DNA from: a virus
Virus record (IMG/VR): IMGVR_UViG_3300019776_000960
Location: 1-42,260 of that record
DNA length: 42,260 bases
Reading direction: 5' to 3' (one strand)
The translations under genes were made by a program, and so were the position numbers. Each line of letters opens with the position of its first letter. Position 1 is the first letter of the stretch. Positions 7,390-40,599 of the stretch are shown piece by piece. The notes beneath the pieces were generated by a model. The model worked only from the letters and a program-made list of their open reading frames with translations, was not told where the DNA came from and did not search any database.

Positions 7390-7400
7390 GAAAAGGACAC
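7390..7400 (-). promoter_or_regulatory. Late-unit box (protease/capsid/terminase unit)
   Basis: GTGTCCTTTTC on the minus strand, ending 31 bases before the protease ATG. One of five copies at the heads of late units; a TAATTTTTT stretch just upstream resembles a Bacteroidota -7 element. Confidence 0.55.
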
Positions 7401-7418
7401 AAAAAATTACATTTGTAT

Positions 7419-7694
7419 ATGAAACAGATAATAGAGCTTACTATACGTAAAATTCGATATTCAGAAAAGTATGTTGAATTTTGGTTCTTTGAACAAAAGA
7501 ATAAACCTGATACTTATTTGCTTGCAAGCAAATATGATATTTTGTACAAAAGTTTTGGCTGTATGAAACCTGAATTAGCAGAAATAATCGGCTGTGTATC
7601 GGTTTGGGAAAAAATCGGTTACAATTTTTTTTTGAAAAAAATATATACAAAACGTAAAGCAAAAAACAGCACCGCTTTGCCAAAAATAAATTAG
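7419..7694 (+). CDS. Antisense-oriented small gene (moron-like)
   Basis: 91 aa from ATG 7419 (MKQIIELTIRKI), strongly basic and aromatic; family not recognised. It is transcribed against the late genes that flank it and is followed directly by a strong terminator. A free-standing, oppositely oriented gene with its own terminator between late genes is the usual arrangement of a prophage moron. A longer start at 7347 would overlap the protease gene and is less likely. Confidence 0.6.
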   Translation: MKQIIELTIRKIRYSEKYVEFWFFEQKNKPDTYLLASKYDILYKSFGCMKPELAEIIGCVSVWEKIGYNFFLKKIYTKRKAKNSTALPKIN

Positions 7695-7720
7695 AAAAGC
7701 CCGCCAATCAGCGGGCTTTT
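7695..7720. terminator. Strong bidirectional terminator
   Basis: Perfect 10-bp stem AAAAGCCCGC / GCGGGCTTTT with a CAATCA loop. It ends the plus-strand small gene and, read the other way, the fibre unit finishing at 7723. Confidence 0.9.
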
Positions 7721-7722
7721 GA

Positions 7723-8577
7723 TTAAGCAAAAGTTGCAGGATCTGTAAATGTATCCTGATAAAAACGCCCTCCAATGGCAAAAGCGGCAGTCCAGCTTGC
7801 TAAATCTAAAGCGTCCGCTTGTGCATAAGTTAACCCCGCACTTGTCAAATCAACAATATGAATTTGATAGAGGATTTCCGAACAAGCTTTGTTCAATTCA
7901 AAACTTGAGTATGGGCCACCAGAGCCAAACTTAAATCCCGTAAAATTAGTACTACTTGCAGTACCAGTTTGCTGACTCGTTGCTCCATTTATTTGTTTAT
8001 TTGCAAGTGAATTGAGGTCTGTTGATGAGCCTCTTGAGCCTAAATTAGCCCCTGTAATAATTCCGCCACCAGTTCCAAACGCCATTACATTATTATTGTT
8101 TGTATTAGCCGTAAAAAGCATAAAATTTGCGGAACTACCTGTAAGGGCAAGTCGGGTCTTTCTACTCCAAACAGAAACAAAAAATCCTCGTGATAGATTG
8201 TTAAAAATATAATTCCTCATTGATACTGGAAGTACAATTTGAAAATCATTACCCGTTGCTATATCATTTGTCTGCGATACAATACCATGAAGCCCCTTTT
8301 TTGTAGTAATTTCAAGTTTCAGCCCGTTAGTAGTTGCGGTATTAACTACCGTAGGGCTTACATTTGCTTCTACTGTTTCACTAAGTATCTGCATCGACTC
8401 CCAATAGGCTAAATTTTTAATAGCAGTACCATTAGAAGGTACTACTGCCGAACTTTGTGGGTGCGAAAAGTCTAATAATAAAAGACTTCCTGCTGTAAGT
8501 CGTTTATCAATTCTTCTTGTAGGAAGATTGCTATTTGGAACAGTAACGTCCAAAATTAATTGAGCTGATTTTGCCAT
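7723..8577 (-). CDS. Virion surface or tail-tip protein (candidate)
   Basis: 284 aa, rich in Thr, Ser, Asn and Gly, without membrane segments; ends in a region GRFYQDTFTDPATF. It follows the fibre gene by two bases and ends its unit at a terminator. Composition and place suggest a second receptor-binding or fibre-associated protein, perhaps with a lectin-like jelly-roll (GFFVSVWSRKT region). No family recognised. Confidence 0.5.
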   Translation of the reverse strand: MAKSAQLILDVTVPNSNLPTRRIDKRLTAGSLLLLDFSHPQSSAVVPSNGTAIKNLAYWESMQILSETVEANVSPTVVNTATTNGLKLEITTKKGLHGIVSQTNDIATGNDFQIVLPVSMRNYIFNNLSRGFFVSVWSRKTRLALTGSSANFMLFTANTNNNNVMAFGTGGGIITGANLGSRGSSTDLNSLANKQINGATSQQTGTASSTNFTGFKFGSGGPYSSFELNKACSEILYQIHIVDLTSAGLTYAQADALDLASWTAAFAIGGRFYQDTFTDPATFA

Positions 8578-8579
8578 TG

Positions 8580-10565
8580 TTATAATTGATTAATTTGCGT
8601 TGAAATATATTTGCCAATTTGGATATACCCTGCTGTATTTGGGTGTACATTATCAGCATTACTTGGGTATGTACCATTTCCGCTAATAGTATTCGCTGTA
8701 AGAATATCCCAGTTATTTTTGTTAATTCCACTGTTGTGATATAAGTCAATCACAGGTATTCCCCACTGTCCACCAATATCTGTAATAGCATTAACTAATG
8801 TTTCTAAGGTTCTACCAGAACCAATAGGGTATTCGGAATAACCATCTGCATCTATATAATTATACTTCCCTACGCAGTGCGGTGTAATTAATACGATTCG
8901 TACATCTTTTCTATTCACACTTGCTGCAAGCGTATAGATTTTTTGAATAGTATAATTGTATCTTCCATATAGTGTATTTTGTGTAGGATACATATCGCCC
9001 CTTGTACCTATTGTTGTACTTCGTTCATTAAGCCCACCGAAAATTGAAACTATATCCTTATCCTGTATTTGTGCAGCTGAAAGAGGAAGGATTGGACTTG
9101 TAGATGCTCCATCACCATCCACCATTGCGAGGATGCCGATGCCTCCTTTTGCATGAGTACTGATAGCCATTCCTGTTTTTTCTGCAATTGTAGTCTGATA
9201 CAATCCTGCTGCTGTTACGCTATCGCCAATACAAAGCATTTTCCCACCAAAATAAGGAAGTAGTTTTTTGTATTCAGATGATAATTTCTGATAGGTAACA
9301 CTACTATCTGGAATTGTGATAGTAATACCCTCTGCAACTAATTTTCCATCACTATATCTAATTCCCGCCAATAACTTTCTTACTTTATCCTCAATCGTAA
9401 AGATATAGTCGTCAAATTCAGGATCAAACGGGAGCAAATTGAAAACTGAATTTTGTAAATCTGTACCCAAGTCGTTTTTTTGAATAGGACTTAATGAATA
9501 ATCAAATAGTGCTTTCAAAAAACCGGTTGAGGTTATCTGCAGAATATACTGTCGTGCTGTTGTAAAAATCTCAAAAAGATTTCCGCTTTCATTATCATTC
9601 TCAGAAAAAGCTGATAAAAAAGCCAAAAGATTTTGGAGGTTAGTATCTAATTTTTGCAATGAAACTGCATTATTAGCAATATTACTTTGTTCTACGGCAT
9701 TAGCTTGTAAGCGAAATAGGGCATTCATGTAGCCTTGTGTATCCCAATACACAAGCATCTGTCTTAGAGTATTTTCGATAGAGGCAATAATATCTTCAGA
9801 GTCTTCATATTTGAATTTATTCGCATTATTTGCCGATTCTATCGCTTTGGCTTCTGCAACTGCTTGTGCAGTTTGTGCTGCAACTTTCGCAGTATTAGCT
9901 TCTCCAGCTTTTTGTGTAGCGATAACAGCTTCGTCGTAAGCGGTATTTTTGTATGCAAGAGCTTCTTCAGCCGAATTAGCTGCATCCGTTGCTTTTTGTG
10001 TAGCAATTCCTGCTTTTTCGGTTGCTATTGTAGCCTTATCTGTCGCAATTGTAGCTTTTTGCCCTGCTAAGGTTGCGGATTGTTCTGCTTCTTCGCTTGC
10101 TTCAACCGTAAGGTTGTACAAAGAATCAACCCCCAAAATATAGAATGCACCATCCACAACATTAATTACATAATGTGTGTCGAAGCTCGCACGCTCAGTA
10201 CTTTCAGTAGGTTTTTCTACAATATGTATATTAAAATAAGCAGGAATATAATCCCTACCGGCTGCATCCGTCACAAGGATTTGCATTTGCAAAGTACCCG
10301 AAATCAAATCGTCGATAACTGTACCATCGCCATTCACCCACTCTTTTTTCACAAAAAACGATTTGCCGTTTTCTGCGATTACAATGTTCGTAGGAGCGTT
10401 AAGCGTTTCAATAATGCTGTTATTCAGCCAGATGTAAGCCTTTATCGTGAAGTCGTTCAGGTTGATATTTGTAACCTCAACAGGCAAGCGAAAGTCAAAT
10501 TGCCACGAAGGGCCCCGTAAGATGGTAATATCCTGCGGGATGGGAGTGAAATCTAAGTTATTCAT
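8580..10565 (-). CDS. Tail fibre with SGNH/GDSL esterase domain
   Basis: 661 aa in three parts. Residues 1-120 form a small beta domain (PQDITILRGPSWQFDF) of the kind that starts BppU-like baseplate fibres. Residues 155-250 are an Ala/Thr/Lys coiled coil of near-repeated segments (KATIATDKATIATEKAG). The C-terminus is an SGNH hydrolase: CIGDS near 445, GGLNE, and a D638NVH641P block for the catalytic Asp/His. Probably binds and de-esterifies host surface glycans. The start is supported by the upstream TTAACACCTAAT motif. Confidence 0.82.
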   Translation of the reverse strand: MNNLDFTPIPQDITILRGPSWQFDFRLPVEVTNINLNDFTIKAYIWLNNSIIETLNAPTNIVIAENGKSFFVKKEWVNGDGTVIDDLISGTLQMQILVTDAAGRDYIPAYFNIHIVEKPTESTERASFDTHYVINVVDGAFYILGVDSLYNLTVEASEEAEQSATLAGQKATIATDKATIATEKAGIATQKATDAANSAEEALAYKNTAYDEAVIATQKAGEANTAKVAAQTAQAVAEAKAIESANNANKFKYEDSEDIIASIENTLRQMLVYWDTQGYMNALFRLQANAVEQSNIANNAVSLQKLDTNLQNLLAFLSAFSENDNESGNLFEIFTTARQYILQITSTGFLKALFDYSLSPIQKNDLGTDLQNSVFNLLPFDPEFDDYIFTIEDKVRKLLAGIRYSDGKLVAEGITITIPDSSVTYQKLSSEYKKLLPYFGGKMLCIGDSVTAAGLYQTTIAEKTGMAISTHAKGGIGILAMVDGDGASTSPILPLSAAQIQDKDIVSIFGGLNERSTTIGTRGDMYPTQNTLYGRYNYTIQKIYTLAASVNRKDVRIVLITPHCVGKYNYIDADGYSEYPIGSGRTLETLVNAITDIGGQWGIPVIDLYHNSGINKNNWDILTANTISGNGTYPSNADNVHPNTAGYIQIGKYISTQINQL

Positions 10566-10568
10566 TTT

Positions 10569-10580
10569 ATTAGGTGTTAA
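10569..10580 (-). promoter_or_regulatory. Pre-start motif TTAACACCTAAT (fibre)
   Basis: Exact 12-base copy of the motif before the capsid and internal scaffold starts, three bases before the fibre ATG. Confidence 0.5.
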
Positions 10581-11335
10581 TTAGTTACCGTACCCGGATT
10601 AACTATTAATGTTTGCGAAAAAATGATAGATGGATTTGTCTTATTGGCAGCAAAAATATAATAAGTGCCTTCTTGTAGAAATACCTCTGGATTACTCACA
10701 AAAGCTTTTGCTTCGGCAAAACTGTTTGTTGTAGCATAGTATAGCTTATACAAATCAATATCATAGCTATCTTTTGCCCGAACCTCTACCTTATATATAT
10801 AAGTGTTTATCCCATCTTTTGGCCAGAGCTTTCTTTCAATCTTAGCATCCCCTAAAATATTAATATACTCATACTCCCGAAACTTAGCTTTTACGAAACT
10901 AAGTTCAAACCTGTTCCGCTGGCTATGCTCTGCTACACCAACGTAGGTATAATTAAGATGATAAGGATTGAAGCAACGAGTAAAACCATTTACATTTTCC
11001 ACCACTACACAAAGATTTTTGCCTTTTATCTTTATAAACCAATCTTCAAAATCTTCTGGCTTAACATCACTTTCAACCGTCGCTACAAAATCAAAACTTT
11101 GCTTCCTACCTTTTTCAGACTTTACTTCTGCAAATTTCAGTTCACCGCTCACACGGTCTTTTGCTCTCCAGCTCGCAAGTGGAGCATAACGATAGAGTAA
11201 TGTGAGTTGATCAATTTTGCATTCAGTTTGTAGGGCCTGTTGTACAACATCTGAAGAAAAGAATAATCGTAAACTCAAAATGCCCCCGACATTGGGTTGG
11301 GAGCTGGCATTCACGAAAGGATTATCAATACTCAT
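10577..11335 (-). CDS. Tail-region structural protein
   Basis: 252 aa from ATG 11335 (MSIDNPFVNASS). This ATG overlaps the stop of the upstream gene as TAATG, which favours it over the longer start at 11386. The protein looks beta-rich, with a small domain near the C-terminus containing GTYYIFAANKTNPS, resembling short fibre-adaptor domains. Between an unknown protein and the fibre, it could attach the fibre to the tail tip. Family not recognised. Confidence 0.55.
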   Translation of the reverse strand: MSIDNPFVNASSQPNVGGILSLRLFFSSDVVQQALQTECKIDQLTLLYRYAPLASWRAKDRVSGELKFAEVKSEKGRKQSFDFVATVESDVKPEDFEDWFIKIKGKNLCVVVENVNGFTRCFNPYHLNYTYVGVAEHSQRNRFELSFVKAKFREYEYINILGDAKIERKLWPKDGINTYIYKVEVRAKDSYDIDLYKLYYATTNSFAEAKAFVSNPEVFLQEGTYYIFAANKTNPSIIFSQTLIVNPGTVTN

Positions 11336-11934
11336 TACATCATCAGGGGATAAGGTGCAAAGGCATCGTTTTTGTGCCGCTGCCAAAATCTTTTACAAGT
11401 TTCGGCACTAAAGTCGAAGTCTGAAAGGTCATACAATGCCTGAAAGTCACGTATTGCATCAACAATCTTCTTATTTTGTAGAATAACCTCATTGTGCATA
11501 TACGCAAGAAATACCCTATTGATCAGTTTATCTAAGTAGCAGTTGAATTTTACCGACGCCTCCCGGCAAGCATAGAACCTAATTTCTGTATATTTTTTGG
11601 GTGGAGAATAACGCCTGAATACAAGCTGGCAATTGTTTAGTTTCTCTGGAGCTTGTGTTTTGGTTTTATGCAATTTTTCAACTGTAAGTACATTTCTCAA
11701 AGCTAAAAATTTGTTTCTATCCATTCTCAGCTCTATAAGTTCGCTAAACTTATACTTCATCTCAAATACAAACTCATCAGGTTCTTTATATTTAAGCACA
11801 TCAAATGTTGTCACTAATATTCCATAACACATCGTGCCAATCTCGTCATAGTTTTCAACCTGTATTTCGTCAGGGTGGTATTTTGCTAAGAATTTTTTAT
11901 TCTTTGCACTTACCTTAATTTTAATACTTTTCAT
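11335..11934 (-). CDS. Hypothetical first gene of fibre unit
   Basis: 199 aa from ATG 11934 (MKSIKIKVSAKNKKF), basic, no recognised domain. A longer reading from 12045 runs through a terminator hairpin and the late box and is rejected. It is coupled to the next gene by a TAATG overlap and begins 40 bases after a late-unit box. A distal tail or baseplate role is likely from position. Confidence 0.5.
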   Translation of the reverse strand: MKSIKIKVSAKNKKFLAKYHPDEIQVENYDEIGTMCYGILVTTFDVLKYKEPDEFVFEMKYKFSELIELRMDRNKFLALRNVLTVEKLHKTKTQAPEKLNNCQLVFRRYSPPKKYTEIRFYACREASVKFNCYLDKLINRVFLAYMHNEVILQNKKIVDAIRDFQALYDLSDFDFSAETCKRFWQRHKNDAFAPYPLMM

Positions 11935-11973
11935 TATTTTTTTTGAACAAAAAAGGATTGAAAACACATCAAA

Positions 11974-11984
11974 AAAAAGGACAT
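11974..11984 (-). promoter_or_regulatory. Late-unit box (fibre unit)
   Basis: ATGTCCTTTTT on the minus strand, 40 bases before the 11934 ATG, after a minus-strand terminator and with a TATTTG element just upstream. Confidence 0.5.
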
Positions 11985-12003
11985 CAGACTGCAAATATTT
12001 TTT

Positions 12004-12055
12004 CACAAAAAAAGTCGTAAATTGTCCCTTGAAATACAAGGTCAATTTACGACTT
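12004..12055 (-). terminator. Large hairpin with minus-strand T run
   Basis: A perfect 13-bp inverted repeat AAGTCGTAAATTG (12012-12024) / CAATTTACGACTT (12043-12055) encloses CCTTG / CAAGG. On the minus strand it runs into a T tract. It would stop leftward transcription from the early block before the fibre unit; the long dyad could also be an operator. Confidence 0.65.
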
Positions 12056-12059
12056 CCCT

Positions 12060-12097
12060 AAAATCCCGATACTTTTGCAGAGGCTTCGGGATTTTTT
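12060..12097 (+). promoter_or_regulatory. Dyad AAAATCCCGA/TCGGGATTTT around a promoter-like -7 box
   Basis: A 10-bp dyad (12060-12069 / 12086-12095) ends in six T residues, a plus-strand terminator shape. Its 16-base centre contains TACTTTTG (12070-12077), which matches the Bacteroidota TAnnTTTG -7 element. It may act as an operator over the promoter of the 12112 gene or as an insulator terminator. Confidence 0.5.
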
Positions 12098-12111
12098 ACA
12101 ATATACTAACA

Positions 12112-12357
12112 ATGATTGAATTTGTAGCAAACGAGTTCATAAAGGAATCCCAAACATGGCATGACTGTGGTACTTTCCGCAAAGTAGTATTCAAAAAAGG
12201 GCTTTATCGGGCTGTTACTATCTATACCCGGGAGCAATGCTCCAGAAGGGAAGATTCAGATTGGAAAGTTAAAATTCTGGAGTACTCATTCGATAGAGAA
12301 TACTGGACTGACGATTGGATTTACATTCGTCGTGAAATTAAAAAAAGAGGCTTGTGA
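12112..12357 (+). CDS. Hypothetical protein
   Basis: 81 aa from ATG 12112 (MIEFVANEF); an upstream start at 12022 would run through the dyad. Charged and aromatic, no domain recognised. First gene of a short plus-strand pair that ends at the 12810 terminator. Confidence 0.5.
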   Translation: MIEFVANEFIKESQTWHDCGTFRKVVFKKGLYRAVTIYTREQCSRREDSDWKVKILEYSFDREYWTDDWIYIRREIKKRGL

Positions 12358-12372
12358 AGCCTTAGTGAAAAT

Positions 12373-12762: not shown

Positions 12763-12809
12763 AGCTTTGCAAGGCACTGAATTTATATTTTATAGAATGG
12801 TTTTAAAAG

Positions 12810-12838
12810 AAGTCCCTCATTAAAAAGGGACTTTTTTA
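12810..12838. terminator. Terminator between converging genes
   Basis: 8-bp stem AAGTCCCT (12810-12817) / AGGGACTT (12826-12833) followed by T residues. It ends the plus-strand pair; in the other direction it can end the serine recombinase transcript. Confidence 0.85.
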
Positions 12839-16830: not shown

Positions 16831-16909
16831 GAGGGATGTAGCTCAGTCAGGTAGAGCGTTGGATAGTGTGATAAGCCAAAGGTCGTAGGTTCGAATCCTA
16901 CCATTCTTC
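16831..16909 (+). tRNA. tRNA-His-like gene with enlarged anticodon arm
   Basis: Acceptor AGGGATG pairs with CATTCTT (two G-U). The D arm is GCTC/GAGC and the T arm GTAGG-TTCGAAT-CCTAC. G at 16831 faces C73 at 16909, the G-1:C73 hallmark of bacterial tRNA-His, and the sequence around the loop (TGTGAT) matches anticodon GTG. The anticodon arm has four extra bases: an 11-base loop, or a 7-step stem with two mismatches. No CCA is encoded. Possibly a decaying tRNA or a tRNA-like RNA. Confidence 0.6.
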
Positions 16910-16920
16910 CGAACCACAAA

Positions 16921-17066
16921 GGGGCTCTACAATAGGGAAAAAAAGGTGATGTCGGGTAAGGGTCTGGATAGTTGATTTAGTGCAGTAGTAAGCTATCAGG
17001 AGAAAAAACCGTCTAAAGAGGCAGAAATGACTGCACCGATGACTTCATACTTCCTATTGTAACCCC
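16921..17066 (+). ncRNA. Structured RNA A (pseudoknot candidate)
   Basis: Closed by GGGG/CCCC and ACAATAGG / CCTATTGT (16929-16936 / 17053-17060). Inside, GATAGTT (16967-16973) pairs with AGCTATC (16991-16997), while GTGCAGT (16980-16986), within that loop, pairs with ACTGCAC (17030-17036), giving a pseudoknot. It fills exactly the space between the His-like and Tyr tRNAs. No known RNA family recognised. Confidence 0.45.
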
Positions 17067-17072
17067 AAATAA

Positions 17073-17156
17073 GGGAATGTAGTGAGTAATGGTATCTCGG
17101 CAGACTGTAAATCTGTTTTCTACGGAACGCTACAAGTTCGAGTCTTGTCATTCCCA
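17073..17156 (+). tRNA. tRNA-Tyr (GTA)
   Basis: 84 nt. Acceptor GGGAATG/CATTCCC; D arm GTGA/TCTC with one T-T mismatch; anticodon arm GCAGA-CTGTAAA-TCTGT (anticodon GTA); long class II variable arm with TTC/GAA stem, as expected for bacterial tRNA-Tyr; T arm ACAAG-TTCGAGT-CTTGT; discriminator A. CCA is not encoded. Confidence 0.87.
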
Positions 17157-17187
17157 CAATCTGAAATAACCCCAAATGCGATAGAGA

Positions 17188-17263
17188 CCCCGTAATCTGC
17201 AATGCGGTAAGGGCTTAGTTCAATAGTATGGGGCAACACCATTGCGAACTAAGCCTATGCAGA
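17188..17263 (+). ncRNA. Structured RNA B (pseudoknot candidate)
   Basis: A long hairpin: TCTGCA (17196-17201) / TGCAGA (17258-17263), then AGG(G)CTTAGTTC (17210-17221) / GAACTAAGCCT (17246-17256) with one bulged G. The upstream CCCCGTA (17188-17194) is complementary (one G-U) to TATGGGG (17227-17233) in the apical region, giving a pseudoknot. Not a cloverleaf tRNA. Family unknown. Confidence 0.5.
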
Positions 17264-17271
17264 AATATCAA

Positions 17272-17435
17272 AGCTCAAAGCTCATAGCTGAAAGCTACAA
17301 TCTTTACACGGGGGATTCTTGCCGAAAGAGGTGAGATAACGGCTGATTTTCAAATTTTTTGTAACCTCTTAGAAATTTGATTCCCAAAAATCAGCACGTC
17401 CCCCGTCTTTAAAAATCTTATAGCTCAAGGCTCAT
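17272..17435. repeat. Direct repeats flanking RNA C
   Basis: AGCTCAAAGCTCAT at 17272-17285 and AGCTCAAGGCTCAT at 17422-17435 (one mismatch) flank the structured RNA, about 22 and 15 bases from its closing stem. Extra AGCT motifs lie close by on both sides. Confidence 0.5.
17308..17406 (+). ncRNA. Structured RNA C with four perfect helices and a pseudoknot
   Basis: P1 ACGGGGGA (17308-17315) / TCCCCCGT (17399-17406), P2 GCTGATTTT (17342-17350) / AAAATCAGC (17387-17395), P3 CAAATTT (17351-17357) / AAATTTG (17373-17379). AAGAGGT (17326-17332) pairs with ACCTCTT (17364-17370) in the P3 loop, a pseudoknot. All 31 pairs are Watson-Crick. It is not a cloverleaf. No known ribozyme or riboswitch core was recognised. 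Confidence 0.6.
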
Positions 17436-17540
17436 CACCCATAGCTATTAATCGTACCAACAGCGGAATTGAAACATTATTTTAATCATTGTGAAAAGGG
17501 CGTTGGCAATGCCAGAGGCGGAAGGACAATCAAACAATCA

Positions 17541-17559
17541 GGGGAGCTTGCCACTCCCC
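17541..17559 (+). promoter_or_regulatory. GGGGAG/CTCCCC hairpin upstream of tiny membrane ORFs
   Basis: Perfect 6-bp GC stem with a 7-base loop, 11 bases before the ATG at 17570. There is no T run, so a leader or processing hairpin is more likely than a terminator. The segment from 17436 to here holds no recognisable gene. Confidence 0.4.
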
Positions 17560-17569
17560 AAATTATAAA

Positions 17570-17632
17570 ATGATATTTTGGTTATCAGTCTCTTTCATCC
17601 TGCTGCTTTCAGTAGGCAAAAAGCAAAAATAA
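17570..17632 (+). CDS. 20-aa hydrophobic leader peptide
   Basis: MIFWLSVSFILLLSVGKKQK: a hydrophobic helix with a basic tail. Its TAA overlaps the next ATG as TAATG, so translation is probably coupled. Too short for a family call. Confidence 0.4.
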   Translation: MIFWLSVSFILLLSVGKKQK

Positions 17633-17766
17633 TGAATATTTCAACTGAAGATTATTTCTTGTATTTAGGAGCTTTATTAACAGCACATCTTGTACTAATA
17701 TTAGGCTTTGCCATAGTGGTCATTAGGTGGTTTAATCAACCGCAAAAAGACGAGCTTCAACCATGA
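17632..17766 (+). CDS. 44-aa single-span membrane protein
   Basis: From ATG 17632 (MNISTEDYFLYLGALL): one membrane helix (about residues 9-33) ending RWF and a short polar tail. Coupled to the upstream 20-aa ORF by TAATG. Function unknown; part of a group of tiny membrane peptides in this RNA-rich segment. Confidence 0.5.
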   Translation: MNISTEDYFLYLGALLTAHLVLILGFAIVVIRWFNQPQKDELQP

Positions 17767-17790
17767 AATTTTACCAATAACACCAAAAAT

Positions 17791-17967
17791 ATGAATGTAA
17801 TTATTGAAATATCAGATGCTTTTGCGGGCTTTTTAGAAAACCTATTAGTCCTAACAGTTGGCTTATCAGCCTTTTTTGTAGGAGCTGCTTTAGCCAAAAA
17901 ACACTTTAAGGAATTTATTGTAGGGGACTTTGAGGATGATAGAAAAAATACTAATAGTAGCATATAG
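17791..17967 (+). CDS. 58-aa membrane protein
   Basis: Starts at ATG 17791 (MNVIIEISDAFAGFLENLL). Residues 16-36 form a membrane segment (NLLVLTVGLSAFFVGAALAKK), followed by an acidic-then-basic tail. Starts 24 bases after the previous gene. No homologue recognised. Confidence 0.5.
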   Translation: MNVIIEISDAFAGFLENLLVLTVGLSAFFVGAALAKKHFKEFIVGDFEDDRKNTNSSI

Positions 17968-18025
17968 TTGCTTTTGCTTTGGCTATGCAATAGCAGGCTC
18001 TTATTATATGCGAAAAAAAAGATGA
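17936..18025 (+). CDS. 29-aa overlapping membrane peptide
   Basis: Starts inside the 3' end of the 58-aa gene in another frame (overlap 32 bases). MIEKILIVAYSCFCFGYAIA is one hydrophobic helix followed by a basic end (MRKKR). Two terminators follow immediately. Confidence 0.4.
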   Translation: MIEKILIVAYSCFCFGYAIAGSYYMRKKR

Positions 18026-18028
18026 TTT

Positions 18029-18050
18029 TGAGTTAATTACTCATTTTTTT
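18029..18050 (+). terminator. Terminator 1 after tiny membrane ORFs
   Basis: TGAGT-TAATT-ACTCA stem of 5 bp followed by seven T residues. Confidence 0.6.
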
Positions 18051-18065
18051 GGTGTGTTGAGGCAA

Positions 18066-18095
18066 ACGTAGTTCGTTCTACGGACTACGTTTTTT
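18066..18095 (+). terminator. Terminator 2 before tRNA-Met
   Basis: ACGTAGT (18066-18072) / ACTACGT (18084-18090), 7 bp, followed by five T residues. It separates the membrane-peptide transcript from the tRNA. Confidence 0.75.
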
Positions 18096-18115
18096 GTTCA
18101 CGCACATAGGATTTA

Positions 18116-18188
18116 TGCAGTGTGGAGAAGATGGTATCTCGTGGGGCTCATAACCCCAAGTCCATGGGTTCGAGTCCCATCACTGCTA
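18116..18188 (+). tRNA. tRNA-Met (CAT) with initiator-like features
   Basis: 73 nt: acceptor TGCAGTG / CACTGCT with only the 1:72 position unpaired (T-T); D arm GAGA/TCTC; anticodon arm TGGGG-CTCATAA-CCCCA; T arm ATGGG-TTCGAGT-CCCAT; discriminator A. Three initiator hallmarks are present: mismatch at 1:72, A11:U24, and three G:C pairs at 29-31:39-41. CCA is not encoded. It lies between two terminators. Confidence 0.85.
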
Positions 18189-18217
18189 CTAATTTTTTAA
18201 GGTTATAATGGAAAAAT

Positions 18218-18246
18218 AGCGATTGGTACTATCAATCGCTTATTTT
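18218..18246 (+). terminator. Terminator after tRNA-Met
   Basis: AGCGATTG (18218-18225) / CAATCGCT (18233-18240), 8 bp, followed by TATTTT. Confidence 0.75.
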
Positions 18247-18301
18247 AAAAAGCCTAAAAGTTTTTTTTGATAGTAAATTAGAGAAAGTGGTGTAATTGAA
18301 T

Positions 18302-18338
18302 CTCCCTTAGAATTATCTAAGGGAGTATTTAACTCCCT
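18302..18338 (+). promoter_or_regulatory. Alternative hairpins (attenuator-like)
   Basis: CTCCCTTAGA (18302-18311) pairs perfectly with TCTAAGGGAG (18316-18325). The second arm's AGGGAG can instead pair with CTCCCT (18333-18338). The exclusive pairings and the position upstream of the 18452 ORF look like a switch, but no ligand or leader peptide is evident. The rest of 18246-18451 shows only a CCACGA/TCGTGG hairpin at 18415-18430. Confidence 0.4.
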
Positions 18339-18451
18339 AAAAATGAATTGATTAGTGCTATTACATATTTGTTATTTTCAGTAACACTTTGTGCTATTAA
18401 TATAATAGCATTCTCCACGAAAAATCGTGGGCTAAACAACCATACCAAAAA

Positions 18452-18592
18452 ATGAACGGATTATTCTTAAATATCAGCCAAATGATTGCTTTTGCTTACG
18501 AGCAAATCACTGTATTATTTGCGTACCTTTTTGCTTACTTATATATATACGCTTGGCAGGCAGTCTACGGACTGTCTGCCTTTATTTTTTAA
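18452..18592 (+). CDS. 46-aa hydrophobic protein ending in a terminator
   Basis: MNGLFLNISQMIAFAYEQIT: very hydrophobic and Tyr/Phe-rich, one or two membrane segments. Its last ten codons form the terminator stem, so the mRNA ends in its own stop region. Function unknown. Confidence 0.45.
   Translation: MNGLFLNISQMIAFAYEQITVLFAYLFAYLYIYAWQAVYGLSAFIF
18555..18590 (+). terminator. Strong terminator
   Basis: 11-bp stem GGCAGGCAGTC / GACTGTCTGCC (one G-U) with a TACG tetraloop, followed by TTTATTTTTT. It lies four bases before the next ATG. Confidence 0.88.
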
Positions 18593-18594
18593 AA

Positions 18595-18936
18595 ATGGAA
18601 CAGAATAAAGATGGACTGGTGAAAATAGGGAGTTTAGGAAGAATTCAACCGATTTTAGATGGTGGCCCAGTAGAATTGATTGCACCCATTGCCATTGTAA
18701 AAAGAGGAATTGAGTGCTTGAAAGAAGCCATTGCAGATTTGGAACAAATGCCATCAGAAAATGTAAGGCTTAGAATTGTTGACTATATCATCAAGCCCGA
18801 TCCTATTCAAGGTTTGCCATTTTCTAAGGAGCTTGTAAAAATGATGCTCCAGACGCAAGTTGAGCTTTATCAAAAACAACTGGAGGAATTGAATAGTGAG
18901 CTTGAAAGAGTTAAGATTCTAATTCAAAGAACATAA
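18595..18936 (+). CDS. Hypothetical helical protein
   Basis: 113 aa from ATG 18595 (MEQNKDGLVKIGS). Residues 35-60 and the C-terminal 45 residues look helical and coiled-coil forming (QVELYQKQLEELNSELERVK). It starts immediately after a strong terminator, so it needs either readthrough or a promoter inside it. Not recognised. Confidence 0.5.
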   Translation: MEQNKDGLVKIGSLGRIQPILDGGPVELIAPIAIVKRGIECLKEAIADLEQMPSENVRLRIVDYIIKPDPIQGLPFSKELVKMMLQTQVELYQKQLEELNSELERVKILIQRT

Positions 18937-18963
18937 TTCATAATTCAACACTCATAATTTAAA

Positions 18964-19032
18964 AGGCATCTCTTCTAAAGCTAAGAGACTTTCGATAGAA
19001 AGTAAATGCGGGTTCGAGTCCCGTGATGCCTA
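18964..19032 (+). tRNA. tRNA-like gene with 6-base anticodon loop
   Basis: Acceptor AGGCATC/GATGCCT (7 bp), D arm TTCT/AGAG, T arm GCGGG-TTCGAGT-CCCGT. The anticodon arm ACTTT-CGATAG-AAAGT starts with no base 26 and has a 6-base loop without T33. It is 69 nt, too short for a normal tRNA. Probably degenerate or a tRNA mimic; isotype cannot be assigned. Confidence 0.5.
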
Positions 19033-34127: not shown

Positions 34128-34527
34128 TTTGTGTAGTAAGATTTACGGTGAAAGAACTTATCGTTTGTTCAATAATGTTAGTAGTGCCTACTTCCTTTAG
34201 GCTGTTTATCATCCAAAATATTTTTCGGTTGATAAGTCGCTTTTGGGGTCTGCGTGTTTTTTTGTCGGATAATGCTGCTGTGTAGCTATTTTGATTAATA
34301 CGAATACCCTGTTTCCAGCCGTTTCCTGCTCCCTGGTCCTGAAACTTTAGTGAGGAACGGTAGTCGAATGTTATTCTGAAGCTGCATTCATTCAAAATGT
34401 CAATATCAATCAATACAGTTTCGTCAGTACTGGTGTTGATTTTGTATCGTTTTATAGATTTTACAACCTTAAATTTTGTATTTTCGGCAAGCTTTTGGAT
34501 TTCAGAAGCTAAATCAAAATGTATCAT
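34102..34527 (-). CDS. Hypothetical protein before tape measure
   Basis: 141 aa, basic (KVVKSIKRYKINTSTDETV and KKTRRPQKRLINRK). The first gene of the tape-measure unit, 31 bases after the late box, and overlapping the tape-measure start by 26 bases. Possibly a tail assembly chaperone or tail completion protein by location. Confidence 0.5.
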   Translation of the reverse strand: MIHFDLASEIQKLAENTKFKVVKSIKRYKINTSTDETVLIDIDILNECSFRITFDYRSSLKFQDQGAGNGWKQGIRINQNSYTAALSDKKTRRPQKRLINRKIFWMINSLKEVGTTNIIEQTISSFTVNLTTQNVSTNREN

Positions 34528-34557
34528 ATTGCCAAATTATGCAACATGAAGTAGGTT

Positions 34558-34568
34558 CAAAAGGACAT
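34558..34568 (-). promoter_or_regulatory. Late-unit box (tape-measure unit)
   Basis: ATGTCCTTTTG on the minus strand, ending 31 bases before the 34527 ATG. The opposite strand of the box includes the ATG (34567) of the antisense small gene. Confidence 0.55.
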
Positions 34569-34866
34569 GAAAACAACCAGCGAGTTATTAGAAACAGCTA
34601 AATATTGCTTGCCAAACCCAAATCTTTATGATTTTGATAAATATTCCGTAGTTGTTTTTGATACTGAAAAGGTCAATTATAGAATACCTTGTTATAATCA
34701 AAATTTATCACATAGAACTTATGAACATATTCTTTTCAATGGTATATATTTTAAAAATATCTCTTATGAGAGGTCTATTTTTAAGGTTTTAGATTTTGAG
34801 AAAATTTCAATTACTGAAGGTGAAAAGACAATTTTTCAATGGGATTTAATAGGAATAAGAAGATAA
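34567..34866 (+). CDS. Antisense-oriented small gene (moron-like)
   Basis: 99 aa, MKTTSELLETAKYCLPNPNL, acidic and Tyr/Phe-rich; family not recognised and unrelated to the gene at 7419. It faces against all neighbouring late genes and ends at a strong terminator, exactly at a boundary between two late units. Confidence 0.6.
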   Translation: MKTTSELLETAKYCLPNPNLYDFDKYSVVVFDTEKVNYRIPCYNQNLSHRTYEHILFNGIYFKNISYERSIFKVLDFEKISITEGEKTIFQWDLIGIRR

Positions 34867-35282: not shown

Positions 35283-35476
35283 TTTGATTTGGGGGTTTGG
35301 TTTTCGGGGAAATAATGTTTCAAAAGCCTAATCACCAGATAGCCAGCAATGGCACAAATGATAGATTGTAGAATTGCCCAAAAGTCAATGTGCGTAATAA
35401 AGCACTTGATAATTGAAACAATAAAAGCAATGATACCTCCGTACATTGAATCGCTGTCATGGTGTTGATTTTTCAT
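35279..35476 (-). CDS. Second holin-like protein (two spans)
   Basis: 65 aa with two membrane spans: about 13-29 (GIIAFIVSIIKCFIT) and 32-52 (FWAILQSIICAIAGYLVIRLL). A short, two-span protein with a charged end is the class II holin shape. Coupled to both neighbours by ATGA overlaps. Confidence 0.6.
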   Translation of the reverse strand: MKNQHHDSDSMYGGIIAFIVSIIKCFITHIDFWAILQSIICAIAGYLVIRLLKHYFPENQTPKSK

Positions 35477-35934
35477 TTCCCGTGTAGATTTTTAATTAGG
35501 GTATAAAGTAACAAAACGATAAAAAAAGCAAAAAGGACATGGAAAGCATACTTCCAATTTGGTGATACTCCGAAAGTCGTTTTGTAAATTTTGTATTGTT
35601 TTGTTAAAATAGTTTGTGAAACACTATCACAATCAGCCCGAACAAAAGTGTTGTCTTTTGTTTTTTTGATGGACAATCTGGCTCTACCGATTTTGATAGT
35701 AGGAATCACATTAACCCAATTGGTATCGTTCACAAATGAAAGAACAATTGAATCGTGTGGAACGATTAATTTTTCATACTTCTGATAAACGACAGTATCG
35801 GGTTTTGATAACTTACTGGCATACTTATCTACACATTTCTGATAAGTAACACAGGAGTTGAGCATCAGAGCGATGCAAAGGGCAAAAAGGAGCAAAAGCA
35901 ACTTTGCGAAATTTGAAACAGTGAATAATTTCAT
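35473..35934 (-). CDS. Unimolecular spanin (u-spanin) candidate
   Basis: 153 aa. The N-terminus (MKLFTVSNFAKLLLLLF...) has a Sec signal ending in the lipobox LNSC, with lipid-carrying Cys at 28. The C-terminus has one membrane helix (about 127-146, FHVLFAFFIVLLLYTLI). A lipoprotein anchored in both membranes is the u-spanin arrangement known from phage T1 gp11, which disrupts the outer membrane at lysis. It lies between the M15 endolysin and two holins. The start overlaps a TAACACCTATG motif. Confidence 0.72.
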   Translation of the reverse strand: MKLFTVSNFAKLLLLLFALCIALMLNSCVTYQKCVDKYASKLSKPDTVVYQKYEKLIVPHDSIVLSFVNDTNWVNVIPTIKIGRARLSIKKTKDNTFVRADCDSVSQTILTKQYKIYKTTFGVSPNWKYAFHVLFAFFIVLLLYTLIKNLHGK

Positions 35935-35939
35935 AGGTG

Positions 35940-36353
35940 TTATTTTTTTAGATTTTTGTTCCAGCCTATTAATTCAAAGTGAGGGCGGTCTGGCATGGAA
36001 ATGAACGTTCCTCCCCATTTAATTTTTGTTGCATACTTTTCTAAGAGAATAGCTGCAAAATTTTTAAAATGCTTTTCGTTCCAGTCAAGCATATTACCAC
36101 TTTGAAAAGCGATGTCAAAAGCTTTAGATAGTAGCTGATTGTGTGGGCTTTGTCCAGCCCTGGCATTTGTAACTATTTTGCCCAGTGCTGTTCGTCCTTG
36201 AGCAAACAAAGCGTTTTGTTCGGCATTGCTACGGTAAGTACAAGTAATAATAGGTGTAGGCCCCGAAGGAAATTTTTTTGTAAATTCTTCTTTGGTAGCC
36301 TTAAAAGCTTCGACCAGTACTGGGTCTAAATCTTCTAATTTGCGTGATGGCAT
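35940..36353 (-). CDS. M15-family endolysin (L-Ala-D-Glu / VanY type peptidase)
   Basis: 137 aa. Metal-binding motifs: SPH71-N (normally SxHxxGxAxD) leading to AFD80IAF, and PH125FEL. The fold matches phage M15 endolysins such as Ply500 and T5 Lys. The first motif has two extra residues between His and Asp compared with the usual spacing. Cuts peptidoglycan stem peptides; release depends on the holins downstream. Confidence 0.82.
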   Translation of the reverse strand: MPSRKLEDLDPVLVEAFKATKEEFTKKFPSGPTPIITCTYRSNAEQNALFAQGRTALGKIVTNARAGQSPHNQLLSKAFDIAFQSGNMLDWNEKHFKNFAAILLEKYATKIKWGGTFISMPDRPHFELIGWNKNLKK

Positions 36354-36357
36354 AGTA

Positions 36358-36858
36358 TTATTCCCAATCGGAATTGTTTAGGTGTGAACTATAATTTATT
36401 TTTTCAGACAGTGTAAACATTACATCTACGCCTGCTGCATTATCTGGTAGTCCTTTTAGATTTTCGATTTTGAAAGCTTCTCTGGAAAGATTGACTTTTT
36501 CAAAAAGAAACAAATTTTCTTCCTGAATCTCTCGCAGTTTTGCCCAAAAGCTCAAGCCTTTGCTTTTGGCTTGTGCAATTGCCAAATCAATGTCTGCCTG
36601 AGTGCCATCCGTGGCACGAATTATCAAAAAGCTTGTTGGATGATTGATTTCATCAGCTCCAGCACCGTAAGGAATAGATAGGTCGGGACGACTGAGCAAC
36701 AAGCAAAAATTAGTAATATCAATATTAAAAACTGATAAATCAGTCAGATGATCAGGGTCATAAGGATGAAATCTTTTGAGCCTTGAGGTCGGATTATGTC
36801 CAATAATAGGCTTCTGAGACAATTGCTCAAAGAATTCTCTATACGCTGTTTCGGTCAT
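36358..36858 (-). CDS. Hypothetical head-tail connector protein
   Basis: 166 aa, MTETAYREFFEQLSQKPII..., no recognised domain. It sits between the connector genes and lysis genes, in the position where tail-completion proteins often lie. ATGA overlap with the upstream gene. Confidence 0.45.
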   Translation of the reverse strand: MTETAYREFFEQLSQKPIIGHNPTSRLKRFHPYDPDHLTDLSVFNIDITNFCLLLSRPDLSIPYGAGADEINHPTSFLIIRATDGTQADIDLAIAQAKSKGLSFWAKLREIQEENLFLFEKVNLSREAFKIENLKGLPDNAAGVDVMFTLSEKINYSSHLNNSDWE

Positions 36859-37670
36859 GGTGTAGGCGTTTGGGTTTTAAGTTCTTTTAGGGCCTTTAGC
36901 TTCATCTCGTGTGCAAATAGGCAATCCCAAAGGGCTGTATTGCCAACAGACTGGTATTTTGTAGGGTCGTTATTGGCTAAAATATGAATAGTATGCCTGT
37001 AAGCTTCAGCAATATCTGTACTACCGCCTGAGCCTTCTGATTTAGGAAAGGTTAGCGGAAAAGATGAGAACACAAAACCACGTACATTTTCGTAGTAGTG
37101 GAGTATAGCCATTCTGGTAAGCTCATCAAAAGTATTGTTACCTACGCCAGTGTACAGGAGCTGAATAATTTTAGTCAATGCCTCTGGTTGCTTATTCAAA
37201 TAATCGGAATAGGCTTCCTCAGCTTCGGAAAATTCTAACAAAGAAAAATCTGCAAGGGTGTCCGCTCGTGCAATTGCAGGTTTTAACATGCCAAATTGAT
37301 AGATTTTTTTGTGTGGATTAACGACCAGCGGACTTTCGTCATTGAAAAAGAAACCCGTACAATGATCAATGGCATCATACAGTGATTCAATATCCAGTTT
37401 TTCAATTTTGATGAATTTTGGAAAGAAAATTCCCAAAATGGGAAAAATGTATTCGTTTTTAAGCAAAAACCATCTGAACCACCAAATATTTTTCAGGTTT
37501 TTGGGATTATCCAAAAGAGCAAAAAACAGCAATAATTTAGCTTTTGAGCTATCGTTTTGATGTGCAACCTGAACCAAAAGGCGGTATTGTTTCGCCGTTA
37601 GCGAGTTTATGTTCGCAGGCAAAAAGAAAAGCTTGTCTTTGATATGTATTTTGTTGAATTGCATACCCAA
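36855..37670 (-). CDS. Hypothetical connector-region protein
   Basis: 271 aa, helical. The first ATG is 37670; the next, 37664 (MQFNKIHI), gives 30-base spacing to the late box, close to the 31 bases seen in other units. The block KQYRLLVQVA and the acidic middle do not match a family I know. First gene of the lysis unit. Confidence 0.5.
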   Translation of the reverse strand: MGMQFNKIHIKDKLFFLPANINSLTAKQYRLLVQVAHQNDSSKAKLLLFFALLDNPKNLKNIWWFRWFLLKNEYIFPILGIFFPKFIKIEKLDIESLYDAIDHCTGFFFNDESPLVVNPHKKIYQFGMLKPAIARADTLADFSLLEFSEAEEAYSDYLNKQPEALTKIIQLLYTGVGNNTFDELTRMAILHYYENVRGFVFSSFPLTFPKSEGSGGSTDIAEAYRHTIHILANNDPTKYQSVGNTALWDCLFAHEMKLKALKELKTQTPTP

Positions 37671-37693
37671 AATTCAGTGTTTGAGCTGATTTT

Positions 37694-37704
37694 GAAAAGG
37701 ACAT
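37694..37704 (-). promoter_or_regulatory. Late-unit box (connector/lysis unit)
   Basis: ATGTCCTTTTC on the minus strand, 24-30 bases before the possible starts of the next gene. The upstream stretch TAATTTTTT is also found before the 7390 box, with the same distance to the box. Confidence 0.55.
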
Positions 37705-37737
37705 AAAAAATTAGCCCTTGTATCATTACAAGAGCTA
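37705..37737 (-). terminator. Terminator before the connector/lysis unit
   Basis: TAGC(c)CTTGTA / TACAAG(a)GCTA stem with one mismatch, followed on the minus strand by GGCTAATTTTTTA. It separates the DUF6712 gene from the next unit. Confidence 0.55.
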
Positions 37738-37810
37738 TAAAGTTTTAAAATCTGCCTAATTTCTCGTCAATTGCACAAAATTTCGTCAAACCTTGTACGA
37801 TTAGAAGAGT

Positions 37811-38740
37811 TTAAAACCAAACTGCCGTAGTAGATTTTACGGTGTCCATCTGGTTAGGATTACCTGTAAAGGTTGGATATTCAGAAAAATCAGAAAGGTT
37901 GGCTCTAATAAAATCAAGAGCATCGTTCAAAATCCTCTCAGCTTTTGCTTGTTCTGCTTGTATTCTATCATCAATGCTTAATTTGGGGGCTGTTTTGTAG
38001 GATTTTTGTCCATTTGCTCCAGTATTATCAAACTGGAGTACAGTATCATATTTTCCTAAAATCACCATTAAGCCGGGCAAACCATCAGCCATTGCAAAAT
38101 GTGCAATTGCAGGGATTAGGTACTTATTCAAAAGCTCTGCTTTTTTGCCTGTTGGCGTAGCTGCTTTCAAAGCCGTAAATAGCGGTTCTGAAATGGCAGA
38201 TTTGATGATAAAATCTTCAACATAGCGAATAGAAGTTCGCAAAGTGATAAACAATCGACGGCTATTCCCGATTTCACAATTTTTCTGAAACTGCTCTACC
38301 GTTTTGATGAACAATTCATTGAAAACGCTGTATTTGGCTGAATTTGTCCAAGCTTCAGGCTTTGTTTCCTCTAAAATAGCAAATACGTTCTCCAGCTCTT
38401 CCATTGCGGTATTGTAGCAAGCAATACGCAAGTTTTCAACATCTTCAGGTCGTGCAGGGCCTTCGGTTGTAGTTTTTGTTTGCGTAGCTCCAGTATTAGA
38501 TACTCTTACGCCTGCATAAGGCAAGTGCAAGAAGAAAGCATAATTATAGATAGCATTTTTCAGCATATCTTTCATGTCATCATCTTCTCCAGTAATAAGA
38601 GTTTCATAGAAAGCTTTTCCAAGCCATTTTTCGGCTAAATCTCTTTCTGCCTTTCGTATTTTTGAAAGGAAGTTTGTCAGATTAAAGGCATTTGCAACGG
38701 GTACATACGATTGCAATTCTACTAAGGTTGCTGTTGTCAT
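37811..38740 (-). CDS. DUF6712-like head-tail adaptor
   Basis: 309 aa, MTTATLVELQSYVPVANAFN with a helical bundle from residue 25 (FLSKIRKAERDLAEKWLG). This pattern matches DUF6712, which follows the portal gene in many Bacteroidota phages and is believed to be a connector protein. ATGA-coupled to the portal gene. The 140-base gap after it holds a terminator and late box. Confidence 0.7.
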   Translation of the reverse strand: MTTATLVELQSYVPVANAFNLTNFLSKIRKAERDLAEKWLGKAFYETLITGEDDDMKDMLKNAIYNYAFFLHLPYAGVRVSNTGATQTKTTTEGPARPEDVENLRIACYNTAMEELENVFAILEETKPEAWTNSAKYSVFNELFIKTVEQFQKNCEIGNSRRLFITLRTSIRYVEDFIIKSAISEPLFTALKAATPTGKKAELLNKYLIPAIAHFAMADGLPGLMVILGKYDTVLQFDNTGANGQKSYKTAPKLSIDDRIQAEQAKAERILNDALDFIRANLSDFSEYPTFTGNPNQMDTVKSTTAVWF

Positions 38741-40119
38741 TGTTTTTGGATGGCTCTGTCTTTGGGTGGAATAGCGTCTTGAGTTTTAATGACCGTTCTT
38801 CTGATTTGAAATTCCATGTCTTCATCAAATTTGTTGTAATCACGTATTAGCCTAGGAATATCCAAAATCAATTCTTCGTTCAAAAATTGACTTACTTGAC
38901 CAACATTTTGTGCATTGCCCTTAGCATTCCCACTATTATTGGTTGCACCGGGCTTTGTTCCATAGCGGCTTGGGTCGATACCAAAACCCCAGTCGATGTT
39001 TGAATCAGCTTCTTGTTGATCAGGTAAGAAGTCGCCTGAAAAGTTTTTCTTGTCGATGACCTCAATTTTGATGGACTTTGCCAGTTCTGTGTCTTTTGCC
39101 GAAAGCTTTGTATTGATGTCTGCAAGAATAATTCTTCCAGCATTCTCAGCTCCGCTTATCACTTCAGTTACAAGGTCGATTACTTCCTGTCTGTAACCAA
39201 GTAGTTTCTGTTTTGCTGCTGGATCACCTTTTTGGAATTTGGCAACTAAATCATTCCAGTCGGTGTATTTTGATGACCAATACCAGTCTGGTACATATAC
39301 TACTACTGAAGCTCCGACGACATTACGAAGAATGTACTTTTTGAATTTTGTAGCATCTATTGAAATGTCTATTACTCCCTGTGTGATTAAAGGATAATAA
39401 TGCGGTATCGGATAAATCAATTCATCGGTTTCAACCCGCAGCAAATAAATGAAATTGGTTTGATTTTCATCAATTGCACGTTCATAAAGTGTTGTAGCAG
39501 AGTCGTAAACGTTGAATATTAAAGGTAATTTTCTTACTCTATTTGTATCATCAAGGCGTGGATTTTTTTCCCAGACAGCAGATAAGTAACAATGATCAAT
39601 TATGCCATCGTCATTAGGTTCAGCAAATCTAAAAGTCCAACCTTCTTTTGTTTCTACCATCGCAATGTAATCCTTATTTTTATTAAGGATGATTTCAACG
39701 GGTGAAAAATAATACTGCGAAAAATTATGAGCTGTAAGGGCTAAATATCTGTTATTGATATTCCACTTTCTGTTCCAGTCACGCCATTCTTTAAATTTTT
39801 TAAATTTAAATTTTTCCTCTCCTTCAGGTGTTTCTTCAATTACTCCAGCTTGAATACCAAGGGCGGCAATTTCAATCTGTGAAAGATGAACATTTTTCTT
39901 CGTTCGATAATTTGAGTTAATTACCTTTCTGAGATTTTCGGGAAAGAGATTATCTATTCCAGCCATCGACAAACCTTTTGTCTGCGAGGCAATATCATCT
40001 TTCACCTTAGTTTTTTTTGTCTTACCAGCCAAAATTTCTTGCGTCATCAGACTGGCAACATCACTTACCGCAAAAGCGATAGAGTGATTATTAATTTGTT
40101 TCGTTACAAAATCAAACAT
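38737..40119 (-). CDS. Portal protein
   Basis: 460 aa. Size, an N-terminal helical region, a central mixed domain (RYLALTAHNFSQYYFSPVEI; PIPHYYPLITQGVIDISIDA) and a Gly/Asn-rich loop (NIDWGFGIDPSRYGTKPG) match Bacteroidota phage portal proteins next to DUF6712 genes. It forms the dodecameric gate through which TerL packages DNA. Family call by pattern and context. Confidence 0.75.
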   Translation of the reverse strand: MFDFVTKQINNHSIAFAVSDVASLMTQEILAGKTKKTKVKDDIASQTKGLSMAGIDNLFPENLRKVINSNYRTKKNVHLSQIEIAALGIQAGVIEETPEGEEKFKFKKFKEWRDWNRKWNINNRYLALTAHNFSQYYFSPVEIILNKNKDYIAMVETKEGWTFRFAEPNDDGIIDHCYLSAVWEKNPRLDDTNRVRKLPLIFNVYDSATTLYERAIDENQTNFIYLLRVETDELIYPIPHYYPLITQGVIDISIDATKFKKYILRNVVGASVVVYVPDWYWSSKYTDWNDLVAKFQKGDPAAKQKLLGYRQEVIDLVTEVISGAENAGRIILADINTKLSAKDTELAKSIKIEVIDKKNFSGDFLPDQQEADSNIDWGFGIDPSRYGTKPGATNNSGNAKGNAQNVGQVSQFLNEELILDIPRLIRDYNKFDEDMEFQIRRTVIKTQDAIPPKDRAIQKQ

Positions 40120-40126
40120 GATTAAA

Positions 40127-40558
40127 TTAATATATTACAGGGTGTCCATTGAACTCAATTATTAGTCGCAAATAACAGTTTCTTATTTGCATAGTATCAG
40201 GCAAAAAAAGCCTTCTAATACTACTCCGCAGCATTTTGTTTGGAATTGTAGAACGAGCCGTTACGATAGGCTCACGAGCTGCTGAAGTATTGCTAATGTT
40301 CCTCATATTCCTTGCCAGTACTGCATTTTTGACAAAGACAATTTTACCAATTTTTTCTTTGTCAGTAGCATTATTTAGAATTTGCAAAACGATTTCATCA
40401 ATTGATTTTTGGGCTTCAATTGCTTTCAGGCGTTTTACTTTGTTAAGAAAAAAGCGATTGAAGCTGACATATTTTAGGGAAAAAACGACCGGGTTTTTGT
40501 CTCTATCGAACTGCTCCATCAGCTCCAGCATAGTATTGAATTTGATATTTGGTAACAT
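40127..40558 (-). CDS. Hypothetical head protein before portal
   Basis: 143 aa from ATG 40558 (MLPNIKFNTMLELMEQ). The start is chosen because it gives the same 31-base spacing to the late box as in two other units. Basic, with SSIRRLF and LRLIIEFNG near the end. It may be a head-completion or portal-associated factor; not recognised. Confidence 0.5.
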   Translation of the reverse strand: MLPNIKFNTMLELMEQFDRDKNPVVFSLKYVSFNRFFLNKVKRLKAIEAQKSIDEIVLQILNNATDKEKIGKIVFVKNAVLARNMRNISNTSAAREPIVTARSTIPNKMLRSSIRRLFLPDTMQIRNCYLRLIIEFNGHPVIY

Positions 40559-40588
40559 GGATACAATTTGCACCTGTTCAAAAAGAAA

Positions 40589-40599
40589 GAAAAGGACGA
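40589..40599 (-). promoter_or_regulatory. Late-unit box (portal unit)
   Basis: CTCGTCCTTTTC on the minus strand, ending 31 bases before 40558; C replaces the A/G at the second position. A TACTTTTA stretch upstream resembles a -7 element. Confidence 0.5.

Follow-up and report, generated by a model that had tools for sequence, protein, structure and literature searches.

Organization of the phage genome

The window, by which the whole stretch of analysed DNA is meant, is an entire IMG/VR virus record of 42,260 bp that reads as a temperate siphophage. Its proteins show likeness to those of Flavobacterium, Cellulophaga and Polaribacter phages. Its regions are arranged as follows.

About 12.8-16 kb: lysogeny genes (integrase, serine recombinase and repressor)
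16832-19032, plus strand: four tRNA genes (Rfam matches) between the lysogeny and early regions
Up to 27.7 kb, plus strand: early region
Minus strand: virion and lysis genes

A box, RTGTCCTTTTC, had been described in the initial annotation as heading every late transcription unit, with copies at 40589, 37694, 34558, 11974 and 7390. Box-like sequence was found at all five positions, but the exact word only at 37694 and 7390. The 11974 copy (ATGTCCTTTTT) and the 34558 copy (ATGTCCTTTTG) each deviate at the last base, and the 40589 copy (TCGTCCTTTTC) carries two changes. The exact word is present twice in the window for 0.05 expected. When one mismatch is allowed there are 5 matches for 2.2 expected, a number equalled in 6 of 100 shuffles. 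Taken without the relatives, the box count in the window makes a weak case and is only suggestive; the box is judged real because conservation in related phages, not the count in the window, decides.

A probable two-part promoter in related phages

A search for the box at late-unit starts in relatives had been proposed as a check; it was carried out and the box was found to be conserved there. Loci were collected from eighty terminase relatives, in which TGTCCTTTC has 67 late-strand occurrences and 13 on the opposite strand. In an alignment of the relatives anchored on the box, a TTTG emerges at fixed spacing with an ATG right behind it. This was quantified on 93 non-redundant late-strand TGTCCTTT sites of the relatives that were chosen on the box alone. 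A TTG has its last base at position 35 in 19 of them and at position 36 in 43, together 62, while other positions average about 1, and an ATG starts at positions 40-42 in 48 of the 93. A TTG at position 35 or 36 was observed in 8% of opposite-strand boxes and in 5-12% of the sites of five scrambled words. In the same way, the arrangement GTCC-N28/29-TYG-N3-5-ATG ahead of an open reading frame was found at 98 places (39 whole records or named-phage loci), against 1-17 places for eleven other spacings and 2-16 for six other four-letter cores. The highest of these control spacings was 26-27, with 17 places, some of which may be real sites with looser spacing.

The bipartite motif and its fixed spacing are thereby established by sequence statistics, and the reading of the box as the upstream half of a putative bipartite promoter is well supported. 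Its layout is (T)GTCCTTT(C), a gap of 20-21 nt, the TTTG or TTCG end of a Bacteroidota -7 element and an ATG about 5 nt further on. The statistics extend to the heads of orthologous late genes: orthologues of the cluster 4 gene have a box ahead of them in 10 of 19 relatives. In some relatives the two halves enclose a nested element, the T-run of the upstream unit's terminator also serving as the -7 element, for example in TGTCCTTTCCATGCCCCTCTTTTAGGGGCATTTTTG. Terminator-like hairpins lying between box and -7 element, with TTTTTG as their T-run, were observed at G006:13066-13101, G008:25523-25558 and G011:27340-27375.

Upstream of the box, only T-richness of at most 0.26 bit per position was found across 182 training sites, and this is expected there because of terminator T-runs. 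The TAATTTTTT-like or TACTTTT-like elements that the initial annotation had placed just upstream of the box are not conserved across these sites. Two of the box copies, at 37694 and 7390, do have TAATTTTTT ahead of them; such elements were rejected as the promoter for lack of conservation. Among the three readings that had been offered, only that of a phage promoter element is supported, and an initial transcribed region and an RNA signal are not, given the conserved partner downstream at fixed spacing.

The five predicted late promoters of the window

The bipartite spacing fits all five late units of the window. The predicted promoters, P1 to P5, and two structures next to them are listed below.

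40637-40660 and 40685-40708: two 24-bp arms of a perfect inverted repeat, 24 bp apart, immediately ahead of P1
40564-40598, minus strand: P1, box CGTCCTTTT at 40598-40590, -7 element CAAATTG ending at 40564, ATG at 40558, 6 nt past the -7 G
37712-37737, minus strand: hairpin resembling a terminator, with T-run, immediately ahead of P2
37668-37703, minus strand: P2, box TGTCCTTTT at 37703-37695, -7 element AATTTTG ending at 37668, ATG at 37664, 4 nt past the -7 G
34533-34567, minus strand: P3, box TGTCCTTTT at 34567-34559, -7 element ATAATTTG ending at 34533, ATG at 34527, 6 nt past the -7 G
11948-11983, minus strand: P4, box TGTCCTTTT at 11983-11975, -7 element TTTTTTG ending at 11948, ATG at 11934, 14 nt past the -7 G
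7364-7399, minus strand: P5, box TGTCCTTTT at 7399-7391, -7 element AAATTCG ending at 7364, ATG at 7359, 5 nt past the -7 G

The box-to-ATG distances are about those first given, taking the ATG at 37664 as the beginning of the 37694 unit. At P4 the ATG lies 14 nt past the -7 G, which implies a short leader. The -7 element of P5 ends in TTCG instead of TTTG, as do other sites in relatives. The statement that four copies follow a terminator is directly true of 37694 and 11974, while the terminator preceding 34558 and the one preceding 7390 lie about 300 bp upstream. The 40589 copy does follow the 24-bp inverted repeat, which would form a very strong hairpin and has as candidate roles those of a terminator or a binding site. 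On the plus strand, the ATG of a 99-aa open reading frame (34567-34866) overlaps the P3 box, so this divergent gene may share P3 or compete with it.

A bipartite matrix was trained on the relatives, with the window and its nearest relatives excluded from training. Its four top-scoring sites in the window, all on the minus strand, were those at 37703 (24.0), 11983 (20.3), 7399 (16.5) and 34567 (16.5). Shuffled windows held on average 0.32 sites scoring 14 or more, the top single shuffled score being 26. With a score of 11.1, P1 (40598) is by itself not above chance; 13 of 15 relatives have a box ahead of the orthologue of its gene (cluster 9). The head-protease gene behind P5 has orthologues with TGTCCTTTC in L001 and L002 and with AGTCCTTT in L008, likewise about 30 nt before the ATG.

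That one box heads every late unit was confirmed for these five units, but a sixth copy that had been included (35530-35540) falls outside the system. It does not fit the spacing, with a score of 10.5 and no suitably spaced -7 element. This box-like copy (35531-35539, minus strand) lies inside a 153-aa gene (35473-35934), has a -7 score of -4.0 and is best taken as chance.

The -7 element and the predicted start of transcription

In Flavobacterium johnsoniae, the -7 element reads T-12 A-11 H H T-8 T-7 T-6 G-5 (TAHHTTTG) and is followed by 4-5 nt to the transcription start site (PMC6847099). Compared with the Bacteroidota sigma-ABfr promoter (-33 TTTG / -7 TAnnTTTG), the phage sites keep A(-11), H(-10), H(-9), TTTG and the normal distance to the start, which is here a predicted one (PMC6847099, PMC7366714). 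A-11 is present in 74% of the phage sites, G is almost absent at -10 and -9 (0.03 and 0.04) and TTTG is kept. On the contrary, T-12 is lost (T 0.29), so that the exact TAHHTTTG was found in 26 of 194 sites and BAHHTTTG in 108. The second difference lies upstream, where the -33 TTTG is absent and TGTCCTTTC stands in its place, with TTTC at about -35 to -32 and the whole TGTCC-TTTC at -40 to -32.

The start ATG lies exactly 5 nt past the -7 G in 68 of the 194 sites and 4-6 nt past it in 104. With G at -5, an ATG 5 nt beyond it makes its A position +1, which is the start distance of Flavobacterium RNA polymerase, and leaderless late mRNAs are therefore predicted. As the box lies at -40 to -32 of this predicted start, it would not be transcribed. 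About 45% of the sites have no ATG 3-7 nt past the -7 G, and hence not every late mRNA would be leaderless. A late start on the ATG, as predicted, would set the phage sites apart from the host sigma-ABfr promoters: leaders exceed 10 nt in 87% of F. johnsoniae transcripts, and 5' UTRs under 10 nt make up only about 3.7% in Bacteroides thetaiotaomicron.

Distribution among phages

The pattern TGTCCTTT-N24/25-TTG is present in 31 of 38 whole records, in up to 8 copies, while the reversed pattern used as a control gave 6 matches in total. Nearly all copies are on the late strand, all matches of a record lying on one strand in the 31 matching records with a single exception in G032. That exception, at G032:37140-37175 on the plus strand, is the sole box-plus-TTG match opposite in strand to the other five of its record. 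Among named phages, sites on one strand and the other number 5 and 0 in Cellulophaga phage Ingeline_1, and 4 and 0 in Polaribacter phage Leef_1, in Mea-Yong924-1 and in Bacteroides phage BT-TP2. Porphyromonas gingivalis phage028a also has 4 and 0, with its sites placed ahead of the genes for the prohead protease and the tape measure.

Flavobacterium phages laban6-1 and 6H each gave one match to the box pattern, which is unconvincing, and their late box has probably diverged. Both (L353 and L355) are Duneviridae members with the candidate protein described below and without clear canonical boxes. A phage named as infecting Microcystis (MZ447863.1) has Bacteroidota-type late promoters together with the candidate activator; its real host may therefore be a Bacteroidota companion of Microcystis. 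A collection-wide search with the correct spacing and a third of the gap combinations gave 70 matches, several contigs having two or more. With a wrong spacing of N17-20, the pattern matched 49 times against 65 for a scrambled control. No relatives were found in the genome collection scanned for them.

A candidate late activator

When the proteins of 20 box-positive records were clustered, structural and packaging families were obtained along with one small family of unknown function (cluster 12). Its members are 150-200 aa long, and no other family outside virion and packaging functions is near-universal among the records compared. Its window member is the following gene.

11335-11934, minus strand: candidate late activator, 199 aa, first gene behind P4 (box at 11974)

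With an iterated profile the family was found in 33 of 35 records, 32 strongly and G032 weakly, and in 7 of 7 named phages with profile E values of 3e-25 to 4e-7. BLAST with single candidate proteins gave no matches in named phages. The window member was matched with a profile E of 9e-7, reaching 1e-37 once iterated, and shares 45% identity with the L008 protein. In BT-TP2 the member is gp8, annotated merely as 'transcriptional regulator'. Relatives first classed as box-negative could not serve as a contrast for the candidate, since they too have the protein and variant boxes (AGTCCTTTA, CGTCCTTTT, TGTCCTG and others). Co-occurrence of box and protein emerges from these counts; nearly all phages compared belong to one terminase clade, so it is not an independent association.

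In relatives the gene usually lies just ahead of the first late promoter, at the early/late boundary. A host-type promoter, TAHHTTTG, was found at 8 of 39 candidate genes for 0.9 expected, which fits expression earlier than that of the late genes. In the window and in L206 the candidate gene itself stands behind a box. This suggests positive feedback, and the 11335-11934 protein is probably self-activating via P4. In L015, L018 and L024, GTCC recurs at 10-bp steps about 110-130 nt upstream of the candidate gene, ahead of its host-type promoter, and these repeats are possibly an operator array.

AlphaFold2 models of two members (pLDDT 84, and 82 for the window member) combine an alpha/beta part at the N-terminus with three helices at the C-terminus; the final helix is basic in the family and has a near-invariant Arg. 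Foldseek of both models against the PDB gave no match at E <= 0.001, and the sole clear fold relative of the candidate is a Leef_1 protein. Scans of 30 family members against Pfam, PHROGs and NCBIfam yielded no credible match, nor was a PDB family match obtained. Neither the family scans nor the fold search revealed a recognisable DNA-binding domain. A LuxR-type protein was also considered as the late activator and was rejected, as it is present in only 8 of 20 records.

Proposed mechanism and alternatives

It appears probable, on sequence grounds, that these sites form a phage late promoter in which the -7 element is read by sigma-ABfr and the box by a phage factor, and from which mostly leaderless mRNAs issue. 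Numbered from the A of the typical start codon (+1), TGTCC would span about -40 to -36, followed by TTTC at -35 to -32. The box would occupy the position of the host -33 element, with the -7 element (BAHHTTTG, sometimes with a TTCG end) at fixed spacing. A box in place of the -33 element suggests the layout of an upstream contact supplied by an activator. The holoenzyme of the host primary sigma-ABfr would read the -7 element, and a phage factor on the box would provide the upstream contact that is otherwise lacking, turning on the late units in concert. The strongest candidate for it is the 150-200 aa protein whose window gene is 11335-11934; elimination, position and co-occurrence lead us to infer that its family is the late activator, binding the box at -40 to -32. 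Transcription would start at, or within 1 nt of, the A of the ATG, leaving most late mRNAs leaderless. Promoter activity, the start site and the identity of the sigma factor are likewise inferred.

The same promoter could have another reader, either a host factor (an alternative sigma or a host regulator) or another phage protein, the 11335-11934 family then doing something else, such as a late replication or packaging role. This is a tentative possibility that is strengthened by G025, a box-positive record with five boxes in which no family member was detected, and by a family with no recognised DNA-binding domain. It has to account for the fact that this is the only near-universal non-structural family, that in several relatives its gene has an early-type promoter and lies where early and late genes meet, and that its members share the basic C-terminal helix with its near-invariant Arg. 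The other common regulator, the LuxR-type protein, is found in just 8 of 20 records.

It would be improbable for the box to be an initial transcribed region or an RNA signal (leader, antitermination or translation) behind TAATTTTTT-like promoters. Such a role would agree with the TAATTTTTT ahead of the copies at 37694 and 7390 and with a box about 30 nt ahead of the ATG, but nothing above 0.26 bit is conserved upstream of the box, while a strong TTTG is conserved downstream at one spacing. Moreover, the ATG distance is fixed to the TTTG and not to the box only, and the strong terminator hairpin between box and TTTG in some relatives would be odd for a leader. Finally, the near-expected one-mismatch count in the window (5 vs 2.2) could be seen as a T-rich word beside terminators in an AT-rich genome, a chance origin that the statistics across relatives refute and that we regard as negligible.

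Comparison with known activator systems

A late promoter read with the help of a phage activator has several precedents. The Mor and C proteins of phage Mu are small phage activators with a site in the -35 region, a poor -35 element and several coordinated units. The system described here resembles them in these features, namely a small activator candidate, a -35-region site and multiple units; scans of Pfam, PHROG and NCBIfam detected no sequence relation between the candidate protein and Mor or C. Mu relies on E. coli sigma-70 and a dyad-type site in a host of another phylum, whereas the late box differs from that site and the host is of Bacteroidota type. Lambda CII and T4 MotA activate promoters with a good -10 by acting at the -35 region or over it, and MotA also requires AsiA, which remodels sigma; their proteins and sites are unrelated to those found here. 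A site common to several late units and overlapping their -35 region, a trait of the Mu C, CII and MotA kind, is present in these phages. In P2, one small protein, Ogr, switches on several late operons via a shared box. Ogr is a zinc-finger protein with sites near -55, unlike the box at -40 to -32.

Significance for Bacteroidota and their phages

Bacteroidota dominate the gut and are major members of marine blooms. The initial annotation knew of no equivalent of the box in Bacteroidota phages, and neither an earlier account of it nor a description of late-gene control in these phages was found in the open-licence literature. There is about an even chance that one Bacteroidota phage lineage, spanning marine flavobacterial, gut Bacteroides and oral Porphyromonas phages, has a dedicated late promoter class with an activator of a new family, leaderless mRNAs and sometimes a nested terminator.

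The motif makes late operons callable from sequence alone and points to a likely activator among 'hypothetical proteins', such as BT-TP2 gp8. Together, the box and the candidate offer an inducible promoter pair for Bacteroidota genetics. If the proposal is true, these phages would issue leaderless late mRNAs in hosts that seldom use them, and with such promoters the extent of leaderless mRNA translation in Bacteroidota hosts becomes testable.
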